A stretch of DNA of 36,183 nt from Lachnospiraceae bacterium (lineage in GTDB: Bacteria; Bacillota; Clostridia; Lachnospirales; Lachnospiraceae): NCBI GenBank assembly GCA_023663945.1, contig JAMPGL010000037.1:1-36183 (forward strand), in the 5' to 3' direction. The translations under genes and the position numbers were made by a program. How positions within the stretch are numbered: position 1 is the first letter of the stretch; every line of letters begins with the position of its first letter. Shown in pieces: positions 7,093-36,183 of the stretch. Below the pieces are notes generated by a model that was given only the letters and a program-made list of their open reading frames with translations, was not told the DNA's origin and ran no database searches.

Positions 7093-7133
7093 ATGATGCA
7101 ACTATGATGCAAAAATGATGCAATTATGATGCA
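7093..7133 (+). repeat. Four ATGATGCA iterons at exact 11-bp spacing
   Basis: ATGATGCA occurs at 7093-7100, 7104-7111, 7115-7122 and 7126-7133, each followed by a variable 3-nt A/T-rich spacer. A perfect TATAAT lies at 7143-7148 with no recognisable -35 because the last iterons occupy that position. This fits an activator array for the downstream LRR operon. Confidence 0.8.
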
Positions 7134-7142
7134 TTTGCCTTG

Positions 7143-7148
7143 TATAAT
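7143..7148 (+). promoter_or_regulatory. Candidate -10 element for the LRR operon
   Basis: Perfect TATAAT 9 bp after the iteron array and about 190 bp before the first LRR gene. The -35 region holds iterons instead of TTGACA, suggesting activator dependence. The 6925-7336 gap otherwise contains only the MscS promoter, this array and a MITE-like repeat. Confidence 0.45.
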
Positions 7149-7159
7149 CAGTTTAACAA

Positions 7160-7257
7160 AGTAAATGACATTAGAAATGTCCTTTTCGCTCCTACAAAAG
7201 CCATATGTGCAAGCTTTTACAAGACTAAAATGGCAATTATTAATGCCGTTAACTATA
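7160..7257. repeat. MITE-like interspersed repeat, copy A
   Basis: About 98 bp, closely matching 23471-23571, especially the last 65 bp (AAAAGCCATATGTGCAAGC core). The ends are inverted: AGTAAATGACATTA on the left against TAGTTAACGGCATTAA (reverse complement) on the right. An internal dyad pairs CAAAAGC with GCTTTTACAAG. It is non-coding and sits in the LRR operon leader. Confidence 0.8.
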
Positions 7258-7336
7258 GATTACATACAGGGAAGAAAATGTTATGTCCAGTCAAATTACG
7301 CGCAGAGAAAGAAAAGAAGAGAGGCAGGGAGATTCC

Positions 7337-9133
7337 ATGGCAAGGTATTTTTCTGCTTTTTTTGAGGCGCTGTTGAAACGGGTGCTTCGGGCGCTTATTT
7401 TGGCGGTAATACCGATGGGCATCATCTGTTGGGAAAAAGGGGCGGCTGCCAAAGCGGTACAGGAGGAGCAGAGCAGTGATGACAAATCTTTTGACCTTGA
7501 CTTTGGAGTAGAAGAGCTTTCCATGCTCATGGAGGAGGCGGTTTCCGCCAAGGGGAAAGAGGGCGAGAATCTTAGGCTGGAAAAGAAGGTTTTGGATGAC
7601 AGGGTATCTTTGCTTTTTTCGGATGAAACGGAGACGGTTGCAATCCATATCTTTTCGGCGGAGGCGGAGCAGAAGCAGGAAGACCCGCATCCGGCGGAGC
7701 AAAGCAAATGGGATGAATTTGAGGCTTTATGGAAGCAGTGCGATGCAATTCTTAAGGAGGAGGGTTCGGATCAGTTTGAACGTTTCAGCTGGCATATGAC
7801 GGATGCGTTTAATAGGGAGGAGGAAACCTTAGGGAAATTTATTCTTTACGGGACGGAAGAGGGAAAGCAGGGATTTTTCAGACAGTATGAAGGGGCGCTG
7901 TATCAAGTTGAGCGTCAGAACGTGCCGGAGGAGGATGTGCCAGAGGGGGATGTGCCGGAGAAGGATATGCCGGAGAAGGATGTGCCAGCGGAGGATGTGC
8001 AGAAGGAGGAGGTATTACCGGGAAAAGAACAGGAAGAAGGCGGCAGAGGAGATATTCAGGAAAGGAAGGAGCAGATTGAAAGGCTTTCTGCCACGAAAAA
8101 ATACAAGGAGGAGCAGGAGAAATGGGAAAAACCGAAAAGCGGGCTGTATGAGATAATGCTCTGGAATCTTTGGAAGGGGCGTATGCCTGCAAGGGGCGTT
8201 GGCTTTGACAGTAGTGAAGTGCGGAATGCCGCTTACGGCAGTTATTTATCCACCGAAATAAAAATGCCTTCCTGGGAGGAAATTATGGAGAAGGAGGAGC
8301 TTTGGGTTTTTGCAGGAGGACAGGTTGAGACGCTTTCCGATTTGAAGAAGTTTCCCCATTTAAAGTGGCTTCACTTTAGCGGAGCAAACCATGGTCATAT
8401 CAATTTTGACCTGACAGGAGATATGGTTCCTGAACTGGAGGAATTACACCTTTTAGAAATTGATTTGGAGAATTTATATTTTTTGGAGAAGTTTCCCCAG
8501 TTAAAAAGCTTGACTGCTGCGTACTGCGGACTTCAGGATATTTCGGGGTTAGAGTATCAGAAGGAGCTTCAGAGAATTAACCTTCAGGATAACCAAATTA
8601 CAGATTTGCCCTTCTTAAGGAACAGGGGGAATCTGATAGCTTTATATATATCCGACAATCTGATCAGTGATATAGCTCCTTTGGAAGAACTGACAGGGCT
8701 TGAGACTCTGTATTTAGAAGGCAATGAGATACAGGATATTGATCCTTTGGAAGGGCTGAGGGAGCTTAGGAATTTGAATTTAAGTAACAATAAGATACAG
8801 GATATTACTCCTTTAGAAGGGCTGAGGGAGCTTAGGACTCTGGATTTAAGTAACAATGAGATACAGGATATTGATTCTTTGGAAGGTCTGGCAAAGCTTA
8901 GAAATCTGGATTTGGGTTATAACAAAATACAGAATATTCGCGTGGTTGAAAATTTGCAAATGTTGTGCCATTTAAATCTTTATCATAATCAGATCAAGGA
9001 TTTTTCACCGGCATTGGAGCCTGCATCGCTTACGTATATCAGTGTGGGGGAAAATCCGGGACAGAATCAGATTGGAGACTTGGTCTTTTTGCCGGACTGT
9101 TGTTTGACAGCGGTTTTTCCGAGGATGAAGTGA
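7337..9133 (+). CDS. LRR surface protein 1, N-terminal part (frameshifted copy)
   Basis: 598 residues from the ATG at 7337 (AGGGAG ribosome site 6 nt upstream; ATG 7283 is a less likely start). The N-terminus has a basic stretch and one hydrophobic helix (RALILAVIPMGIICW), so it is a signal peptide or membrane anchor. A module with FEALWKQC (about residues 70-190) is shared with the third LRR protein. A low-complexity acidic linker of VPE(E/K/G)D pentapeptides follows (196-226), then about ten 22-residue internalin-type leucine-rich repeats (about 322-585) such as LETLYLEGNEIQDIDPLEGL. The frame ends after GDLVFLPD, exactly where the third protein continues into its C-terminal domain, so a one-base loss near 9096 split this gene. 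LRRs of this type bind proteins or glycans; the ligand is unknown. Confidence 0.8.
   Translation: MARYFSAFFEALLKRVLRALILAVIPMGIICWEKGAAAKAVQEEQSSDDKSFDLDFGVEELSMLMEEAVSAKGKEGENLRLEKKVLDDRVSLLFSDETETVAIHIFSAEAEQKQEDPHPAEQSKWDEFEALWKQCDAILKEEGSDQFERFSWHMTDAFNREEETLGKFILYGTEEGKQGFFRQYEGALYQVERQNVPEEDVPEGDVPEKDMPEKDVPAEDVQKEEVLPGKEQEEGGRGDIQERKEQIERLSATKKYKEEQEKWEKPKSGLYEIMLWNLWKGRMPARGVGFDSSEVRNAAYGSYLSTEIKMPSWEEIMEKEELWVFAGGQVETLSDLKKFPHLKWLHFSGANHGHINFDLTGDMVPELEELHLLEIDLENLYFLEKFPQLKSLTAAYCGLQDISGLEYQKELQRINLQDNQITDLPFLRNRGNLIALYISDNLISDIAPLEELTGLETLYLEGNEIQDIDPLEGLRELRNLNLSNNKIQDITPLEGLRELRTLDLSNNEIQDIDSLEGLAKLRNLDLGYNKIQNIRVVENLQMLCHLNLYHNQIKDFSPALEPASLTYISVGENPGQNQIGDLVFLPDCCLTAVFPRMK
7922..8011 (+). 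repeat. 15-bp coding tandem repeat (VPEED linker)
   Basis: Six 15-bp units of the type GTGCCGGAGGAGGAT encode (V/M)PE(E/G/K)D pentapeptides between the N-terminal module and the LRRs. Slipped-strand changes could alter linker length without shifting frame. Confidence 0.85.
8723..8986 (+). repeat. 66-bp DNA repeats inside the LRR domain
   Basis: A 66-bp period (22 codons) starts at 8723, 8789, 8855 and 8921. The first three units are almost identical at DNA level (e.g. GAAGGGCTGAGGGAGCTTAG), so these LRRs were duplicated recently. Confidence 0.85.
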
Positions 9134-10146
9134 TGCAGCGGGCGGCGCAGGCTGTTTTGGACAGGTTTTATCCGGATGAAGCACTTATGGCGGTGGATAT
9201 GACGGCAGGCGACTTAAACGGAGACGGAATGATGGATCTGGCAGTTACAGGGCTTGATGAGACGGCAGACCAGTATGACGGCGGGAAGAAGGTTTATTCT
9301 TTTATCCGGCAGGCAGACGGAAATCTTCGGGCGTTAAATCCTATCGGCATATTGGGATCTGTCTACGGAGAAATGCGCAGCGGAATACTGATCACGGATG
9401 GAAGATTGGCAGTGAGAGCCGAGGACCGTGGCGGCAACATGTGTAGGAAGGTTACGAATATCTATCAGTATGAAGACGGGGAGATGAAGGAAAAATGGAG
9501 GGTTGGACTCGGCGGATATGACTATTACGGAGATGAGTTTACCATAACCAATATGGAGGACGGCTCTTACCGCAGTTATGTGATAGCGCAGGATAATAAA
9601 GAGGAAAGGCAGAGACTGCTTTTGTATGAGCATTCAGGAGGCAGTTTTTCCCCGATGGAAAGGGAGTTTCTCGATGATTATGCAAAGTATCAGGAAAGAA
9701 GGGGAATTGTGCTCAAAGAATTTCCGCTTGACTTAGGGATAGGAAGAATGGAAATCAGCATAGACTCGTATGATTACCAAATCCATAATGTGCCTTATGA
9801 CACCAAATGGACTCCTGACGAGGTGCTTCTGGAGGCGGCAGAGAAGTATTTGAGGGATTATTGTGGTCTTCCGGTGCCTTATTATGCCTCAGATGAGATT
9901 TGGGAAAATTATAAGACACTGACAGGCGTGGAACCGCCGAAGTTTCTCTGGATTGGTCAGGATAAGAAGGAACCGGACAAAATTAAGATGTTAAGCTATG
10001 ACAGCTGCGAGGAGCAGGAAGACGGAAGCTTTCAGCATAAACTCTCTCTCTGGCAGGTGCGGTATGCGGAGGAGGAAGCGGAGATTTGGGAAGATGGGAA
10101 GAGCATTTATTTTGATGAAAGGGATGAGAGGTTTTATGCTGAATAA
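9133..10146 (+). CDS. LRR surface protein 1, C-terminal part (DLNGDG domain)
   Basis: This frame continues the homology of the upstream ORF to the third LRR protein: QAVLDRFYPDEALMAVDMTAGDLNGDGMMDLAV matches RILDLFYPDDELIAQDMVKGDLNHDGILDTVI there. DLNGDGMMD resembles a Ca-binding EF-hand/FG-GAP loop. The C-terminal 110 residues (GLPVPYYASDEIWENYKTLTGVE) also match the end of protein 3. Homology reaches upstream to about 9097, inside the previous ORF but shifted by one base. The TGA of the upstream ORF overlaps an ATG here (TGATG at 9131-9135) with GAGG 8 nt upstream, so separate translation by reinitiation is possible. It is either a broken half-gene or a coupled subunit. Alone it has no signal peptide, which favours a broken gene. 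Confidence 0.7.
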   Translation: MQRAAQAVLDRFYPDEALMAVDMTAGDLNGDGMMDLAVTGLDETADQYDGGKKVYSFIRQADGNLRALNPIGILGSVYGEMRSGILITDGRLAVRAEDRGGNMCRKVTNIYQYEDGEMKEKWRVGLGGYDYYGDEFTITNMEDGSYRSYVIAQDNKEERQRLLLYEHSGGSFSPMEREFLDDYAKYQERRGIVLKEFPLDLGIGRMEISIDSYDYQIHNVPYDTKWTPDEVLLEAAEKYLRDYCGLPVPYYASDEIWENYKTLTGVEPPKFLWIGQDKKEPDKIKMLSYDSCEEQEDGSFQHKLSLWQVRYAEEEAEIWEDGKSIYFDERDERFYAE

Positions 10147-12622
10147 AAGAACCAAAAAGAAATCAATCTTACGTTTTTGGCTGTTTCTGGCAGCGGCAGG
10201 AAGCATTCTGGCTGTGACGGTTCTTTTTATCCGGCAGCAGTCAGGAGGGCTTACGATGAGGGACGGCTGGTGCGAGATTTATACGCCGGAGGACTACCAA
10301 TTGTTCTGGGAGATGGTATCAGAGGGACAGGCTGATTTGAAAGGACGGCTGATGGGGGACATCAAACTGAATCATCTAGGGAACAAGGAAAACTGGCGTG
10401 AAAACCCGCCCTCCAATGTTTCTGCGGAGGTAACTGTTTTCACGGGCATTTTTGACGGAAACGGATATACCATCTATGGGCTTTACAGCGAAAACGGGTA
10501 TGGTCTGGTGAGGGAAAACATGGGGACGATTCAAAATGTGAACATCAGCGATTCCCTGATTTATGGGGAATATTTTGCCGGGGGCATCTGCTATCAAAAC
10601 GATGCGGTAATTACCGGATGCCGGATGTCCGGAGACCTCTGCCATCAGAAGGAGCAGACGGCGCGGATGGCAGGAGTCTCCATTGTGAACACCGGGCTGA
10701 TTGAAAAGTGTACTTATAACGGCAGGATGGAGTGCATGGAAAGGGACGGCGACAGGGCGGGAATCTGTCCGGAGAACAGGGGAAAGATTAAAAACTGCAG
10801 TAACATAGCCGGACCGGATGAGGGAGGAAGGACAGGATATTTTTCACATGCTTATGATCATGTGTACGCCATAGCGGATGAGGGAATGGAAAATTGCTAT
10901 GCGAGAGAGTATTACCAATGGTCTATCCCGGAGGGCGCTCAGGTGATCCGGGTTCCCCGCAGCCAGCTTTATATGCTGTTCCTTCTGATGGAGGAAGACT
11001 GCTATCCGCTGATTGCCAAAGAGGATCCCATGGTTGTGAAGCAGGCGCCGGAAGAAATTTTGGAGGCAGGCAGAGATCCCTTTATCTTCCGCATGGTGTG
11101 GGAGCTTTGGGAAAAGGGATATTTGGAGGAATCCCAGATTGAAATGCAGACGGCGCAAAAGGAGGAGGACTGCTCTTTTGCCGTGCAGTTTACGGTGGAA
11201 GAACAGGTATTGGAGGTCAGGGCTTATCCGGCGGAAAGGAAAGATGAGGATTATAAAAGCCTTGTGGAGCACCTTGCCGTAATCCTTGGGGAACCGGAAG
11301 CAGACTGGACGCACAGGACTTATCAGCTTACCGCCCTGCCAAAGCGGCAGGGAAGCCGGATGGATCAGATTGAGGAGACAGAGCCGGAATGGCTGGTATT
11401 TTATCAGACAAAGTCGGAAGCCGGATTTTGGTATCTGTGGGGAGAGATGCTTTATCGGGTGATTCTGCCGGAGCGGAACGAAAAAGCGTTTGATGAGATT
11501 TTAAAGCGGTTTTGCGAGAAAAGGGAATTGTCGGAGGGGATTGACTGGGAGGATAAAGTAATTCAAAGGGCGGTCTACCGGGAATTGCAGGGAGACGATA
11601 GGGCAGGGGAGAGAATCTTTTCCCGGGAAGAGATTGAGGAGGTTAAGAGGCTGGCAATTGAAGATGCAGAGTCTGTAGAGAGCTATCTGGACTTGGAGCA
11701 TCTGCCGGGGCTTACCAAGCTGAAGCTTTGCGGAGGAAGGATACGGGTAGGGAGGGTGAATGCACCGCTTACCAGCTTAAAGCTTGAAAACTGCTATGTG
11801 GAGGATCCGGAATCCATCAGCGGGCTTTTGGAGCTTGCAGAATTGGAAATGATTCGCGTAAGGGGAGTGGATGATTATAGTTTTTTGAAGGAGCTTAAGG
11901 GGCTTGAAAGGCTGTCCCTGCGCTCGAACGGACTGTCCGATTCGGATGTGAAGGAGCTGAAAAGCTTATCTCATTTGAAGAAACTGGATTTATCCTTTAA
12001 CCGGATTGAGGATTTTTCGTTCCTGCAAAAACTGCACGGATTGAGCAGCCTTTGGGTAAACGATAATCCCGGAAAGGAGCTGGGGGAATTAGTCTATGTT
12101 CCGGATCTGCGGATAGGAAATTATGTCAAAAACGCGGACGAGCTGGAAGATCTGCATAATGCGCAGAAGATGCTTGATGAGTGGTATCAGCGTAAAGAAA
12201 ACGTGCCGGAAGGGAAAAATAATCGGAATATAGAAGCAAAAGAGCTGGCAAGAGGAGACTTAAACGGCGATGGAATGGGAGATTTTGCGGTGATTGGTGA
12301 GAGCAGGGAGGAGATTGACCGGGAAGGAAACCTTATTTCACCAAGGCAGAGGAAGGTTTATCTGTTTTTGGGAACGCCGGACGGTTATCAGCAGGTGCAG
12401 ACGATTTTTCTGCCGAATCCCATCCTATCAAAAGATAAGGAGCAGGAGGCGGGACCGGTCAGCCAGATTGCCATATCGGAGAACCATCTGCTGGTTCAGA
12501 CCACAGGGAAGTCTGACGAGACAGGGGGAAACTGGAGCAGTATCAGTATTTATACATGGACGGGAGAAAGAATGGAGCCTGAGTTAAGAAATGAAACAGA
12601 TTATGAAGAACAAGAAAACTAA
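10136..12622 (+). CDS. LRR surface protein 2 (GLUG-like, LRR, DLNGDG)
   Basis: 828 residues. ATG 10136 is chosen over the longer frame because GAGAGG lies 5 nt upstream; it overlaps the previous gene by 11 bp. The N-terminus is basic with a membrane helix (about 11-32, FWLFLAAAGSILAVTVLFI) and no later helix, so the body should be outside the cell. Residues about 104-235 form a GLUG-like beta-helix: GIFDGNGYTIYGLYSENGYG, ENMGTIQNVNISDS, then turns with Cys. A unique middle region follows, then four or five LRRs (519-648) and RGDLNGDGMGDFAVIG (about 708). The C-terminus stops about 180 residues earlier than in proteins 1 and 3. The start of the next gene lies inside its last codons, so the three are translated together. 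Role unknown. Confidence 0.85.
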   Translation: MLNKRTKKKSILRFWLFLAAAGSILAVTVLFIRQQSGGLTMRDGWCEIYTPEDYQLFWEMVSEGQADLKGRLMGDIKLNHLGNKENWRENPPSNVSAEVTVFTGIFDGNGYTIYGLYSENGYGLVRENMGTIQNVNISDSLIYGEYFAGGICYQNDAVITGCRMSGDLCHQKEQTARMAGVSIVNTGLIEKCTYNGRMECMERDGDRAGICPENRGKIKNCSNIAGPDEGGRTGYFSHAYDHVYAIADEGMENCYAREYYQWSIPEGAQVIRVPRSQLYMLFLLMEEDCYPLIAKEDPMVVKQAPEEILEAGRDPFIFRMVWELWEKGYLEESQIEMQTAQKEEDCSFAVQFTVEEQVLEVRAYPAERKDEDYKSLVEHLAVILGEPEADWTHRTYQLTALPKRQGSRMDQIEETEPEWLVFYQTKSEAGFWYLWGEMLYRVILPERNEKAFDEILKRFCEKRELSEGIDWEDKVIQRAVYRELQGDDRAGERIFSREEIEEVKRLAIEDAESVESYLDLEHLPGLTKLKLCGGRIRVGRVNAPLTSLKLENCYVEDPESISGLLELAELEMIRVRGVDDYSFLKELKGLERLSLRSNGLSDSDVKELKSLSHLKKLDLSFNRIEDFSFLQKLHGLSSLWVNDNPGKELGELVYVPDLRIGNYVKNADELEDLHNAQKMLDEWYQRKENVPEGKNNRNIEAKELARGDLNGDGMGDFAVIGESREEIDREGNLISPRQRKVYLFLGTPDGYQQVQTIFLPNPILSKDKEQEAGPVSQIAISENHLLVQTTGKSDETGGNWSSISIYTWTGERMEPELRNETDYEEQEN

Positions 12623-15600
12623 AATCATAGTTCCGTTAATTCCGGCATGGCTGCTTTTGATGGGAGCCGGATGGATTTTGTACCAAAATATCAAAGAGAT
12701 GCCGGGAAGGGAACTGCCTCTGACAGCAGATGGATACTATAAGATTGCATCGGCGGATGATTATTTTCTTTTTTGGGATGAGCTCTGTGTGAAGAATCGT
12801 CATGCCAAGGCACGTCTTGTGGCGGATATTTCTTTAAACGAAGTTCATGCGCAGATGATGAAACATGCCAAGGAGGGCACTCTCAGGCAGAGCAGTAATA
12901 TACGCAGTTTTTCCGGGGTTTTTGACGGAGACGGGCATACCATATACGGGTTATATCATGACGAAGGATTTGGCTTAGTCGAAAGAAATTGCGGAGAGAT
13001 ACGCAATCTTTCCATACGGGATTCTCTGGTCTATGCAGATAATGTTTTTGCGGTAAAGATAGGGGGTATTTGTAAGGAAAACCACGGAGTAATCGAGGAA
13101 TGCGACTTTGGCGGGAAATTATGCAGCACGGATGACAGCGGCAGTGTTACGCTGGCGGGCATTTGCACGCGGAATCTGGGAACGATTGTCCGGTGTGGGT
13201 TTTCCGGAACCGTTGATGTATCCGGAAAGGAAAAAGATTTTGATGCACAGATTTTCGGTATCTGCACAAGGAATGAAGGAGAAATCGTTAATTGCTATAA
13301 TCTGGCTGATTTAAGCGATATCACATGGGATGGATACCAGCTGAGGAGTGCAAGTGCAATTACCGATCAGGGAGAAAAACATTGCTTCACTGTGTCAAAC
13401 CTGAGCTGGAACTTTTCTGACAACGGACAAACGGTAGCAATCGACTATCGGCAGGCAGAACACATTCCGGCGCTTATCCATGAGGATTTTTATGACTTGT
13501 TTGTGAAAGATAAGAAACCGGAGGAAGAGGAGGAGATTCGGGAAGCGTTAAAAGAGGAGACGGTGTCGGATTTGATCATGGATTTAATCGCCGCAAAAGG
13601 AAGAAAATGGGACGATCTCAGCTTGGAGGCAGAAATTTCAGAGGAGTCTGTTCTCTTGATTTTCTCCGACGGGGAGGAAGAGATTACCATGAAAGCCTGC
13701 TCCGGGCAGGAGGAGGCTGAGCCTGTGCCCGGTTTATTTATGGGCAGGTCTGCGGCAGGGGAAGAAGATGAGGAAGAAGATGGGAACTCTTCTTGGCAGG
13801 ATGATTTTGAAGGATTATGGAAGCAGTGCGCAGAAAATCTCGGAGAGAAGGATGCGGACAGCTTTGAACATGCCAGCTGGCAGATAGCGGACGGTTTTGA
13901 TGAGGAAGAGACGGTATTCGGGAATCTGGTGCTTTTTGAGACTGCCGGAGGACGGGAGGGATTCTTTTTGCAAAAAGACCGGAAGCTGTATCAGGTGGAA
14001 AGCAGAAAAGCCAAAGAGGAACCTGAGATGTATCGTGGGATGCTGAGGCAGATTTGGAAGTGCCGGCGGCCGTCAGTGGGAATCTTGTGGGAATCTGAGG
14101 CGGTACGGGACGCTGCTTTGTCGGCGATTGAAGAGGGCAGAGAGAAAGCGGAAGATTTGAAACAAAACATTAATTCAACAGGGGAGGAACAAAAGCCGGA
14201 TGTATGGGAGACTGCTCCGTCCAGAGAAGAATTGTATTATCTGGAAACGCTTTCCGTTAAAGGCATTGATGATACATATGATCTAAGCGATCTGGCGAAG
14301 ATGCCCCATTTGAAATCACTTTTTCTGTCCGGAAAGCGGCAGTGGGTTTCTGACATGAACTCGTATTTGGAAAAGGCGGCAGTTCCGGAGCTTGAAGAAT
14401 TAGAGGTTTATGGAATGAGGCTTACAACATTGGATTTCTTGGAGCAGTTTCCGCAGTTGAAAAGGCTGGCGGTTCGAAACAGCGGATTAAAAGATATTTC
14501 GGGGCTTAAACATCAAAAAGAACTTACGGAGATATCATTTTATCATAATAAGATTCAGAATATCTGGGCGCTTCGGAATTGTAAGAAACTGGAAAGACTG
14601 TCAGTTGAAAGAAATCAGATAAATGATATTTCGGTTCTTGCCTCCCTGACAGAGCTTAGGGAGATTGATGTTTCACATAATGAGATTGATTCGGCAGAAC
14701 CGCTGCAATGGCTTGGAAAACTGAAAAGCTTGTCATGCTGCTATAATGAAATTCAAAATATTGATGTGCTTAAGAATTTGACTCAATTACAGGATTTGGA
14801 TCTTTCCCACAATGAAATCGAAGATTTTGAACCGATTACCGGGCTTGCCGGACTGCGTTATCTGGATATTAGCTATAATCCCGGGCAAAATATTGGAGAT
14901 TTGGTTTTTGTGCCGTGGCTTCACTTAGGCAACGGCGTTTGGGATGCGCAGGGGGAAAAATGGGAGGAGGCGCAAAGGATTCTTGACCTTTTTTATCCGG
15001 ATGATGAGCTGATTGCACAGGACATGGTAAAGGGAGATTTAAACCATGACGGTATTTTGGACACGGTTATTACCGGTTTAAATGAAGAAAACCCGGAATC
15101 CTTTCTGGATGACACCAGAAAAATATATATCTTCCTTGGAAAATCGGATAATACGCTTCAGAAAATTGCGCCCATTGACGAATTTGGACCCGGATATGAC
15201 GGAGGCGATTTCGGAGGAGATTACAGAGGGATGCTGATAACGGATGGCAGGCTTGTTTTACAGATTGGCATAGGCGGCACGGATGGCAGACAACATACGA
15301 CATGGATTTATGAATACAAACAAGGAAGCATGCAGGAAAAATGGAAATTTAAGCTTACTTATTACGGTGATGAAGAGGGAGCCGGGTATATCGTTACGGA
15401 TAAAGAAAACCAGCGGGAGCAGTATTATGTGATTACCGATGACGGACAGCTTTTTATGGGGGAAGACAATGGGGAACCGAGTGCAGTGGAAAAAGATTTT
15501 CAGGAAAAGTATTTACAGTTTCAAAAGGACATTGGACGAAAGCTTCCGGCAATTGGCGGTTCAGTATATCCGTTTTTAATAGGAGATTATGATTCGTACA

Positions 15601-15956
15601 GTTTTCCCATTTATGATACCTTGTATGACACGGCGCATCGGCCCTGCGAATTGCTTTCGGAGGCTGCGGGGATATTTTTAAGTGAATATCAGGAATTTCC
15701 CGTCCCCTGTTATGCTTCGGAGGAGATTCTGCACAATTGTGAAACGATTGCAGGCGTGGAACTGCCTCAAACCTTCTTTATAGGATTTCGGAAAAAGGAC
15801 GGGGAAATAGTCAGCCTGTCCTATGATATGTGCCGGAAGAAAGCGGATGGCAGCCTGGAACACACAATTGCCGTATGGCATGTGGTTGACGGAAAATGGG
15901 CGTGGAAAGAGGACATTACTTATAACGAAGCGGATATGATGTTTGCCGCCGGGTAA
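12591..15956 (+). CDS. LRR surface protein 3 (full-length member, 1121 aa)
   Basis: The complete version of the family. A signal anchor spans residues about 12-31 (IIVPLIPAWLLLMGAGWILY). A GLUG-like beta-helix follows (about 109-250: GVFDGDGHTIYGLYHDEGFG, ENHGVIEECDFGG, CTRNLGTIVRCGFSG). Next come an acidic region with the FEGLWKQC module also found in protein 1, eight or nine LRRs (about 547-767; LQDLDLSHNEIEDFEPITGL), KGDLNHDGILDTVITG (about 813) as an FG-GAP/EF-hand-like loop, and a C-terminal domain shared with protein 1. The ATG overlaps the end of gene 2 by 32 bp and only a weak GAG precedes it, implying coupling. The combination suggests a large adhesin or sensor on the outer face of the membrane. 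I know of no named function for this architecture. Confidence 0.87.
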   Translation: MKQIMKNKKTKIIVPLIPAWLLLMGAGWILYQNIKEMPGRELPLTADGYYKIASADDYFLFWDELCVKNRHAKARLVADISLNEVHAQMMKHAKEGTLRQSSNIRSFSGVFDGDGHTIYGLYHDEGFGLVERNCGEIRNLSIRDSLVYADNVFAVKIGGICKENHGVIEECDFGGKLCSTDDSGSVTLAGICTRNLGTIVRCGFSGTVDVSGKEKDFDAQIFGICTRNEGEIVNCYNLADLSDITWDGYQLRSASAITDQGEKHCFTVSNLSWNFSDNGQTVAIDYRQAEHIPALIHEDFYDLFVKDKKPEEEEEIREALKEETVSDLIMDLIAAKGRKWDDLSLEAEISEESVLLIFSDGEEEITMKACSGQEEAEPVPGLFMGRSAAGEEDEEEDGNSSWQDDFEGLWKQCAENLGEKDADSFEHASWQIADGFDEEETVFGNLVLFETAGGREGFFLQKDRKLYQVESRKAKEEPEMYRGMLRQIWKCRRPSVGILWESEAVRDAALSAIEEGREKAEDLKQNINSTGEEQKPDVWETAPSREELYYLETLSVKGIDDTYDLSDLAKMPHLKSLFLSGKRQWVSDMNSYLEKAAVPELEELEVYGMRLTTLDFLEQFPQLKRLAVRNSGLKDISGLKHQKELTEISFYHNKIQNIWALRNCKKLERLSVERNQINDISVLASLTELREIDVSHNEIDSAEPLQWLGKLKSLSCCYNEIQNIDVLKNLTQLQDLDLSHNEIEDFEPITGLAGLRYLDISYNPGQNIGDLVFVPWLHLGNGVWDAQGEKWEEAQRILDLFYPDDELIAQDMVKGDLNHDGILDTVITGLNEENPESFLDDTRKIYIFLGKSDNTLQKIAPIDEFGPGYDGGDFGGDYRGMLITDGRLVLQIGIGGTDGRQHTTWIYEYKQGSMQEKWKFKLTYYGDEEGAGYIVTDKENQREQYYVITDDGQLFMGEDNGEPSAVEKDFQEKYLQFQKDIGRKLPAIGGSVYPFLIGDYDSYSFPIYDTLYDTAHRPCELLSEAAGIFLSEYQEFPVPCYASEEILHNCETIAGVELPQTFFIGFRKKDGEIVSLSYDMCRKKADGSLEHTIAVWHVVDGKWAWKEDITYNEADMMFAAG

Positions 15957-16035
15957 CACTATAACAAACGAAGTGGAAAGAAAAGACAAAAAGAACATTG
16001 GCGCGGAGGAAATATGCCGAAGAAAGGGAGAAAAG

Positions 16036-16179
16036 ATGATGGACGGATTTGGATTTGCAAAAGATGAGAAGCGCAGGGAAAGGAAAAAGCTGATGAGGGC
16101 AGGATATGTTCTGGCTTGGACAGTATTGATATTGATGTGGGCGGTGCTGGCGGCAAGATCCACTGTGATGATGGGGTAA
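16036..16179 (+). CDS. Small single-pass membrane protein (47 aa)
   Basis: A short gene with a clear ribosome site (AAGGGAG 5 nt before ATG 16036), 80 bp after LRR protein 3 and on the same strand. The N-terminal half is strongly charged (KDEKRRERKKLMR) and is followed by one hydrophobic helix (AGYVLAWTVLILMWAVLAA). The charge distribution predicts the N-terminus inside. It may be an accessory or assembly partner of the anchored LRR proteins, but this is inferred only from position. The open frame extends upstream to 15943, but no ribosome site supports that start. Confidence 0.65.
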   Translation: MMDGFGFAKDEKRRERKKLMRAGYVLAWTVLILMWAVLAARSTVMMG

Positions 16180-23446: not shown

Positions 23447-23470
23447 CAATTATTAATGTCGTTAACTATA
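23447..23470 (+). repeat. Solo right end of the MITE-like repeat
   Basis: The segment (AATTATTAATGTCGTTAAC core) is identical to the right end of copy B at 23548-23571 and abuts copy B. It is either the scar of a nested insertion or half of a tandem array. Confidence 0.75.
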
Positions 23471-23571
23471 TAGTAAACGACATAACTAATTGCTCATTCC
23501 GGCTCTTGCAAAAGCCATATGTGCAAGCTTTTACAAGACCAAAATGGCAATTATTAATGTCGTTAACTATA
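23471..23571. repeat. MITE-like interspersed repeat, copy B
   Basis: 101 bp with terminal inverted repeats TAGTAAACGACATAA and (reverse complement of the right end) TAGTTAACGACATTAA. An internal 11-bp dyad pairs CTTGCAAAAGC with GCTTTTACAAG. It matches copy A (7160-7257). It ends 8 bp from the stop of the Rpn-type nuclease gene. Together with copy 3 and the solo end it accounts for the 23280-23578 gap. Confidence 0.82.
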
Positions 23572-23578
23572 AAACCTC

Positions 23579-25320: not shown

Positions 25321-25393
25321 TATATTTTCAACAAAATTTCGGTTTAATGTGGTAAAGGGAGTTTAGAAAACGGACGCTTGTATGGAGATTTAT

Positions 25394-25504
25394 TTCTACG
25401 TTGCCACGCTCTCGCTCACTAAAAAGCACAGCAGTACTAGGTTCGAAAATACCTCACCAAGTACTGCTGCGCTTTTTAGTGAACGAGAGTGGGGCGACGT
25501 AGAA
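25394..25504. repeat. Long palindrome, 45-bp arms
   Basis: Arms 25394-25438 and 25460-25504 are complementary at 40 of 45 positions, with a 21-nt loop that holds a small AGGT/ACCT stem. The right arm and following 54 bp recur inverted at 36086-36183. Confidence 0.88.
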
Positions 25505-25558
25505 GTTATTCTTGATACGAGTGGTCGTTTTGATAATACGCCTAATCAAACTAAACCG
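25461..25558 (-). repeat. 98-bp inverted repeat, left copy
   Basis: The reverse complement matches 36086-36183 with three mismatches. The two copies face each other and enclose the xylan/aldouronate locus, about 10.6 kb apart. Confidence 0.88.
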
Positions 25559-25898
25559 GAATTTAAGGCACTTTCCGGTGACACGGACATAGAAAATATC
25601 GAACAATGGGCAGGGGAACAGGGGATCAAGGAGGAGGAAGAGATTATGGTATGTGAATTATTTGACCAGTACGAAAGAAAAGGAGAAGCAAGAGGAAAAA
25701 TTGCCGGTGAAGACCGCTTTGCCAGTCTGGTGCAGATACTTATGGATGCCGGAAGAAACGATGATTTAAGGAGAGCAGCCACGGATCGGGAATACAGAGA
25801 ACAGTTGTATATGGAAGCTCATATTGCGTAGACAGGGAATATCCGGCGGAAATTGTGTCTGCACAATGTTCACAGGCACAATTTCCGCTGAATGTATT

Positions 25899-35942: not shown

Positions 35943-36085
35943 AATTTCTTAAAATTTCCTGAATCACAAAGATTTTCACAAAGATACTGATTTTTTTAAA
36001 TTCGGTAAAATGTTAAAGAAGAATCCTGACAGTAGGTGGACGTTCAAAAAGCGATAGTATTACCGCAGATAGGAGTTTTAAGTTT

Positions 36086-36183
36086 CGGTTTAGTTTGATT
36101 AGGCGTATTATTAAAACGACCACTCGTGTCAAGAATAACTTTTACGTCGCCCCACTCTCGTTCACTAAAAAGCGCAGCAGTAC
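36086..36183 (+). repeat. 98-bp inverted repeat, right copy (cut by window end)
   Basis: Matches the reverse complement of 25461-25558 with three mismatches. On the minus strand it keeps an open frame (VILDTSGRFNNTPNQTKP) like that of the left copy. The other arm of the hairpin presumably lies beyond the window. Confidence 0.88.

Follow-up and report, generated by a model that had tools for sequence, protein, structure and literature searches.

A row of related, apparently outward-facing membrane-anchored proteins behind a repeated promoter element in a Lachnospiraceae genome

What function a row of large, related genes behind a repeated DNA motif could serve was the question raised by a locus of a Lachnospiraceae bacterium (GCA_023663945.1, contig JAMPGL010000037.1). 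The whole stretch analysed, hereafter the window, comprised 36,183 nt (positions 1 to 36,183, forward strand). The locus encodes a row of related, fast-changing membrane-anchored proteins, apparently facing outward, behind an unusual repeated DNA promoter; known building blocks stand here in a new genus-specific combination, within what seems an undescribed envelope regulon. Lachnospiraceae is a family common in animal guts, and its surface biology is, to our knowledge, little explored. An excerpt of PMC10989990 places the family among the most abundant human gut bacteria. The same genus sets the same element ahead of many other cell-surface genes. The analysis thus provides a genus-wide element of readable geometry that marks an envelope gene set, and identifies one highly variable member of that set, which opens both regulator and ligand to direct testing. 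The locus comprised the following features.

7094..7133, + strand: putative promoter element, four 11-bp-phased TGATGCA repeats (repeat pairs at 7093-7133)
7143..7148, + strand: -10 hexamer TATAAT, exactly 9 nt past the last repeat
7160..7260, no strand assigned: dispersed palindromic repeat (like a miniature inverted-repeat transposable element or repetitive extragenic palindrome, MITE/REP) between promoter and gene 1; 38 matches in its own genome, itself included (E<=1e-3)
7337..9133 (start 7283 or 7337), + strand: gene 1, first part; transmembrane (TM) anchor, middle domain and leucine-rich repeats (LRRs), without beta-helix
9100..10146, + strand: second part of gene 1, which lies in a different frame and holds the FG-GAP-like and C-terminal domains (A3 profile E 4.4e-144)
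10136..12622, + strand: gene 2; TM anchor, beta-helix, middle domain, short LRR and FG-GAP-like parts, without C-terminal domain
12591..15956, + strand: gene 3, full architecture, 1121 aa
12720..13487, + strand: gene 3 GLUG/IgA1-protease-type beta-helix, residues 44-299
13488..14060, + strand: gene 3 middle domain, residues ~300-490, possibly PsbP/Mog1-like; kept in 17 aligned members
14229..14903, + strand: gene 3 LRRs, residues ~547-771 (Pfam LRR_4 E 4.8e-26)
14958..15470, + strand: gene 3 FG-GAP-like domain with GDLNHDG loop, placed by homology to gene 1
15603..15953, + strand: gene 3 C-terminal alpha/beta domain, placed by structure model blocks
16036..16179, + strand: 47-aa one-TM protein (W4), conserved putative partner; profile match in 22 of 37 genus genomes

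Three overlapping genes had been described in an earlier, sequence-only reading of this DNA, which the present analysis confirmed in part; the frame break in gene 1 and the promoter element had escaped that reading. Genes 2 and 3 were open; gene 1 was broken into two open reading frames, the LRR part stopping at 9133 and the FG-GAP/C-terminal part running in another frame from 9100. Comparison with relatives placed the frame change between about 9095 and 9138. Gene-1-type copies had a single frame in genome G031 (three copies, 971, 1147 and 1177 aa) and in genome G032 (one complete copy, 1138 aa; the other G032 copy was cut by the contig end). Because the source assembly consists of 107 contigs, an assembly error is possible at the break. 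The shuffling of modules was borne out, with gene 1 lacking the beta-helix, gene 2 lacking the C-terminal domain and gene 3 complete. One architecture was common to 17 aligned family members, so that the copies share their modules, as had been proposed. The frame break, the palindromic repeat between promoter and gene 1, and the loss of the C-terminal domain from several family copies would fit a decaying array, the locus being a relic. Such decay is improbable, however, given that genes 2 and 3 are open, that the promoter element is intact, and that the ratio of nonsynonymous to synonymous substitution rates (dN/dS) was 0.13-0.25 in six array comparisons, from which window gene 1 was left out. 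In gene 1, LRR units at 8655-8938 showed 66-bp spacing and 77-79% DNA identity, hinting at recent unit duplication. The palindromic repeat, of roughly 100 bp, had a second copy at 23470-23575 (match 23502-23571).

Analysis of the modules showed one TM segment in all 13 available N-termini. The LRR domain resembled that of class 1 internalins (InlA, InlH) in having a run of similar repeat type, and the NCBIfam InlA model matched gene 1 (E 5e-31), gene 2 (E 3.2e-7) and gene 3 (E 9.5e-25). The LRR fold thus agreed with the internalin-type assignment of the earlier reading, whereas the curated full-length internalin models were missed widely (108.1 bits vs 1275, 107.8 vs 1600 and 92.6 vs 1050; cut-offs 1050-1700 bits, best array score 108 bits). 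The LPxTG wall anchor, a defining feature of InlA-type internalins, was absent from all 15 array proteins or parts, and the array differs further from class 1 internalins in its N-terminal TM anchor and in the beta-helix ahead of the LRRs. These features bear on whether the array consists of host-directed adhesins that bind mucus or epithelial glycans or proteins, the copies differing in specificity. A role as adhesin or surface sensor had been suggested from the LRR and GLUG resemblance and may hold in part; the host-directed version is doubtful, since the sorting signal is missing, the single N-terminal anchor places the first domain inside the wall, and the products of several co-regulated genes target the cell wall.

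The beta-helix was of the GLUG type present in M26 IgA1 proteases (3n6z, 7uvk, 6xja); in the array, in contrast, it is joined to LRR and FG-GAP-like parts, and no HExxH metalloprotease motif occurred in the same 15 proteins or parts. As in FG-GAP/integrin-alpha repeats, a GDLNGDG loop stood in a similar setting; the array differs in having one weak unit under the Pfam cut-off, and a propeller is putative. Pfam FG-GAP matched gene 1 at E 0.0023 with 18.2 bits (cut-off 22.1), and FG-GAP_3 likewise scored below its cut-off there (19.1 vs 26.9 bits). Gene 3 itself had no Pfam match to this domain. A weak profile match joined the FG-GAP-like part to integrin alpha-IIb (E 0.006). The middle domain gave weak Foldseek matches to 1vr8 (E 0.046, TMt 0.49), PsbP 2xb3 (E 0.065) and Tsi3 (E 0.072). 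Model blocks of the C-terminal domain had predicted local distance difference test (pLDDT) values of 69-89, except for 53-56 over fragment residues 281-300. An alternative N-terminal domain was likened by eye to the lysozyme inhibitor LprI; Pfam gave no LprI match. The PADLOC anti-phage models matched none of five proteins (0 families at E<=1).

The distribution of the family was determined in 37 genus genomes and 61 others, a carrier being defined by a family match at E<1e-30. The family was carried by 22 of the 37 genus genomes and by none of the 61 others, among which the best match reached 1.5e-23; the matches listed there were mostly LRR stretches. The C-terminal profile matched 2 of 299 family genomes, namely the window's own and one weakly (E 2.8e-7); G028, a genus member in this sample whose large protein is short, was unmatched. 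A single gene of 1104-1227 aa was present in the locus read of eight carriers (G002, G006, G008, G013, G019, G023, G030, G035); in the others the forms were shorter, the genes numbered two or more, or a contig end interrupted the gene. Pairs were found in G015, G014, G004 and G009, and arrays of three or more in the window, G031 (six) and G032 (at least three, contig end). Named records with the family were CAMWJC010000011.1, JAUNGK010000043.1, JAAVAA010000049.1 and CAMWFQ010000010.1 (three labelled Lachnospiraceae, one Bacillota).

The array has evolved fast and as a mosaic. Its neighbours proved to be conserved, as anticipated: the order array, small protein, 157-aa protein and, farther on, SASA and GH2 genes was common to the window, G031 and G032. 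Between the window and G031, identity was 79-84% for three flanking proteins, 50-54% for the best-matching array proteins and 62% for the small protein. Between G031 and G032, three array pairs had dN/dS values of 0.22-0.25 at dS 0.28-0.53, compared with 0.03, 0.09 and 0.11 in three flanking genes at dS 0.25-0.34. The comparison of the window with G031, with dS near saturation, gave 0.13-0.20 for the array and 0.07-0.08 for the flanks. In the pair G31_c/G32_b, the synonymous difference amounted to 19-68% in the first 500 codons and to 0-2% across about 400 codons. The longest segment of this pair with <=1% mismatch was 1436 nt with 14 mismatches, while the first 720 nt were 50-82% identical. 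Because a near-identical stretch lies beside a diverged start, recombination is indicated, unless one assembly is chimeric there.

Ahead of gene 1, three TGATGCA repeat pairs were found, compared with 0.05 expected in shuffles. In 19 of 22 carriers, a repeat pair scoring >=13/14 lay <=300 nt from a family gene; among 3000 random stretches of 300 nt drawn from these loci, true sites included, 27 reached 13. In G030, the pair preceded a small-protein fusion gene immediately upstream of the large gene; in G028 and G029, its distance upstream was about 1-1.4 kb. The element preceded the small protein in five non-carriers (L084-L088). Inner array genes of G031 and G032 carried their own element copy, whereas window genes 2 and 3 did not. 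Of 64 clusters, 47 had TAnnnT exactly 9 nt past their last unit, as did 42 of the 49 with three or more units; in some of the remainder of the 64, the script had taken the -10 itself as a unit. The window's own genome held 43 exact repeat pairs at 15 places, and 93 pairs with up to 2 mismatches, compared with 1 for the reversed control. The three-unit pattern (up to 2 mismatches) occurred in 31 of 37 genus genomes and 6 of 61 others, the latter with a single match apiece (exact in one genome, with 2 mismatches in three, not listed for two); its control gave 1 match in 98 genomes. All 22 carriers had the pattern, compared with 9 of 15 non-carriers (p 0.002; kinship between genomes was disregarded in Fisher tests throughout).

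Direct repeats phased by 11 bp near a -10 at fixed distance are a hallmark of PhoB-activated promoters, and this OmpR/PhoB-type arrangement was found here. Pho boxes lie about 10 nt ahead of the -10; the present element differs in sequence, commonly has four units and is genus-restricted in the genomes searched. A candidate regulator is the PhoB-type response regulator L134, which had matches at E<=1e-58 in 26 of the 31 genomes with the element and in 0 of the 6 without it.

Genes downstream of the element in the window's own genome included those for RCC1- and WG-repeat proteins, an LRR_5/NADase_transloc lipoprotein, an amidase_3-deacetylase, a VIT-VWA protein with exosortase K, and a TM/LysM pair. 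An FG-GAP_3-like protein (26.5 bits, cut-off 26.9) stood there ahead of a response regulator and kinase. The element also preceded genes for an apiosidase-like protein, a Na/Pi cotransporter and, at a distance of 414 nt, a DUF1846 protein. Both G008 and G030 again had the amidase-deacetylase (in G030 by eye), VIT-VWA/exosortase K and a membrane sulfatase, likened to LtaS by eye, under the element; the LysM protein recurred in G008, and a GH25 protein stood under it in G030. An N-terminal hydrophobic stretch was present in 25 of 30 first genes (L138 and L224, with no clear gene, were dropped), compared with 115 of 227 background genes (called genes of at least 150 aa in fetched neighbourhoods, family members included). 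With an amidase-deacetylase, LysM protein, membrane sulfatase and GH25 among the element-bearing genes, and with the likeness of the alternative N-terminal domain to LprI, the array proteins could instead be structural or protective envelope proteins, a cover or an inhibitor of lytic enzymes, and not receptors. Fast divergence, copy number change and recombination would, however, be unusual for structural proteins, and we consider this unlikely. A VIT-VWA protein and exosortase K stood under the same element in three genomes (L140, L220, L230).

The 47-aa protein was found in 22 of the 37 genus genomes by profile search (21 loci and the window), in loci detected by tblastn at E up to 10 or already fetched. 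It was associated with the large genes, as had been supposed, sharing their locus in 17 of 22 carriers, compared with presence in 5 of 15 non-carriers (Fisher p 0.016). This co-location might reflect a sensor complex, in which binding of a wall or peptide ligand by the large protein would be relayed to a kinase or to the small TM protein. Two further observations point the same way: the domain fused to a small-protein-like TM in G030 equals the N-terminal module of the G035 large protein (E 2e-16), and in G000 and G031 an element-bearing FG-GAP-like protein lies directly ahead of a response-regulator/kinase pair. Domain-model scans, however, recognised no signalling domain in either the large or the small protein, and five of the 22 carriers lack the latter; such a complex seems rather unlikely. 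The small membrane protein model MmpB (NCBIfam NF047320) was missed (16.1 vs 34 bits). A flavin adenine dinucleotide (FAD) oxidoreductase with a Rieske-like C-terminus (by eye) lay directly ahead of the small protein at L043, L045, L046, L049, L050, L084 and L085; an FAD oxidoreductase was beside it in 2 of the 5 non-carriers.

On balance, we lean towards an array of membrane-anchored, outward-facing ligand-binding proteins under a shared, activator-driven repeat promoter. A genus-specific ancestral protein would have been duplicated into the array and diversified via point change, module loss and recombination. One N-terminal helix is predicted to insert each protein in the membrane, and the beta-helix and LRR surfaces may cross the wall and bind a ligand. 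The 47-aa protein is probably an accessory, perhaps a membrane partner, as its co-location and the one domain-sharing case suggest. Transcription would begin at the promoter whose four 11-bp TGATGCA repeats end 9 nt ahead of the -10, and an activator, probably of OmpR/PhoB type, would bind the repeats and switch on the operon together with peptidoglycan- and surface-remodelling genes.

Several results weigh against this explanation. The small protein was unmatched in carriers G008, G015, G016, G019 and G023, and in five non-carriers, where the large protein is missing, its neighbour was a polysaccharide deacetylase lipoprotein (one scanned deacetylase was PdaB-like, under the cut-off, 213 vs 237 bits). 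The structure model of the FG-GAP-like part was poor (mean pLDDT 59). All dN/dS values were well below 1, so that positive selection was not indicated. Among 28 loci read, the exact element preceded the L134 regulator operon only in G000 and G031; at L176 and L195 a 12/14 pair lay 3.4-3.8 kb upstream of it, and L180 was read for 159 nt upstream only. Both p-values leave kinship between genomes uncorrected. A wider proposal is put forward only tentatively: the four-times-11-bp repeat promoter might define a genus envelope regulon of which the array is the variable arm, a recombining receptor repertoire whose copies can carry their own promoter and whose dedicated 47-aa partner helps to link wall remodelling with the recognition of phages, other cells or host factors.

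Elsewhere in the window, an inverted pair of about 106 bp (95% identical) was found at 25455-25566 and 36072-36183, the second copy at the contig end, and the stretch 25334-25564 was also partly palindromic.
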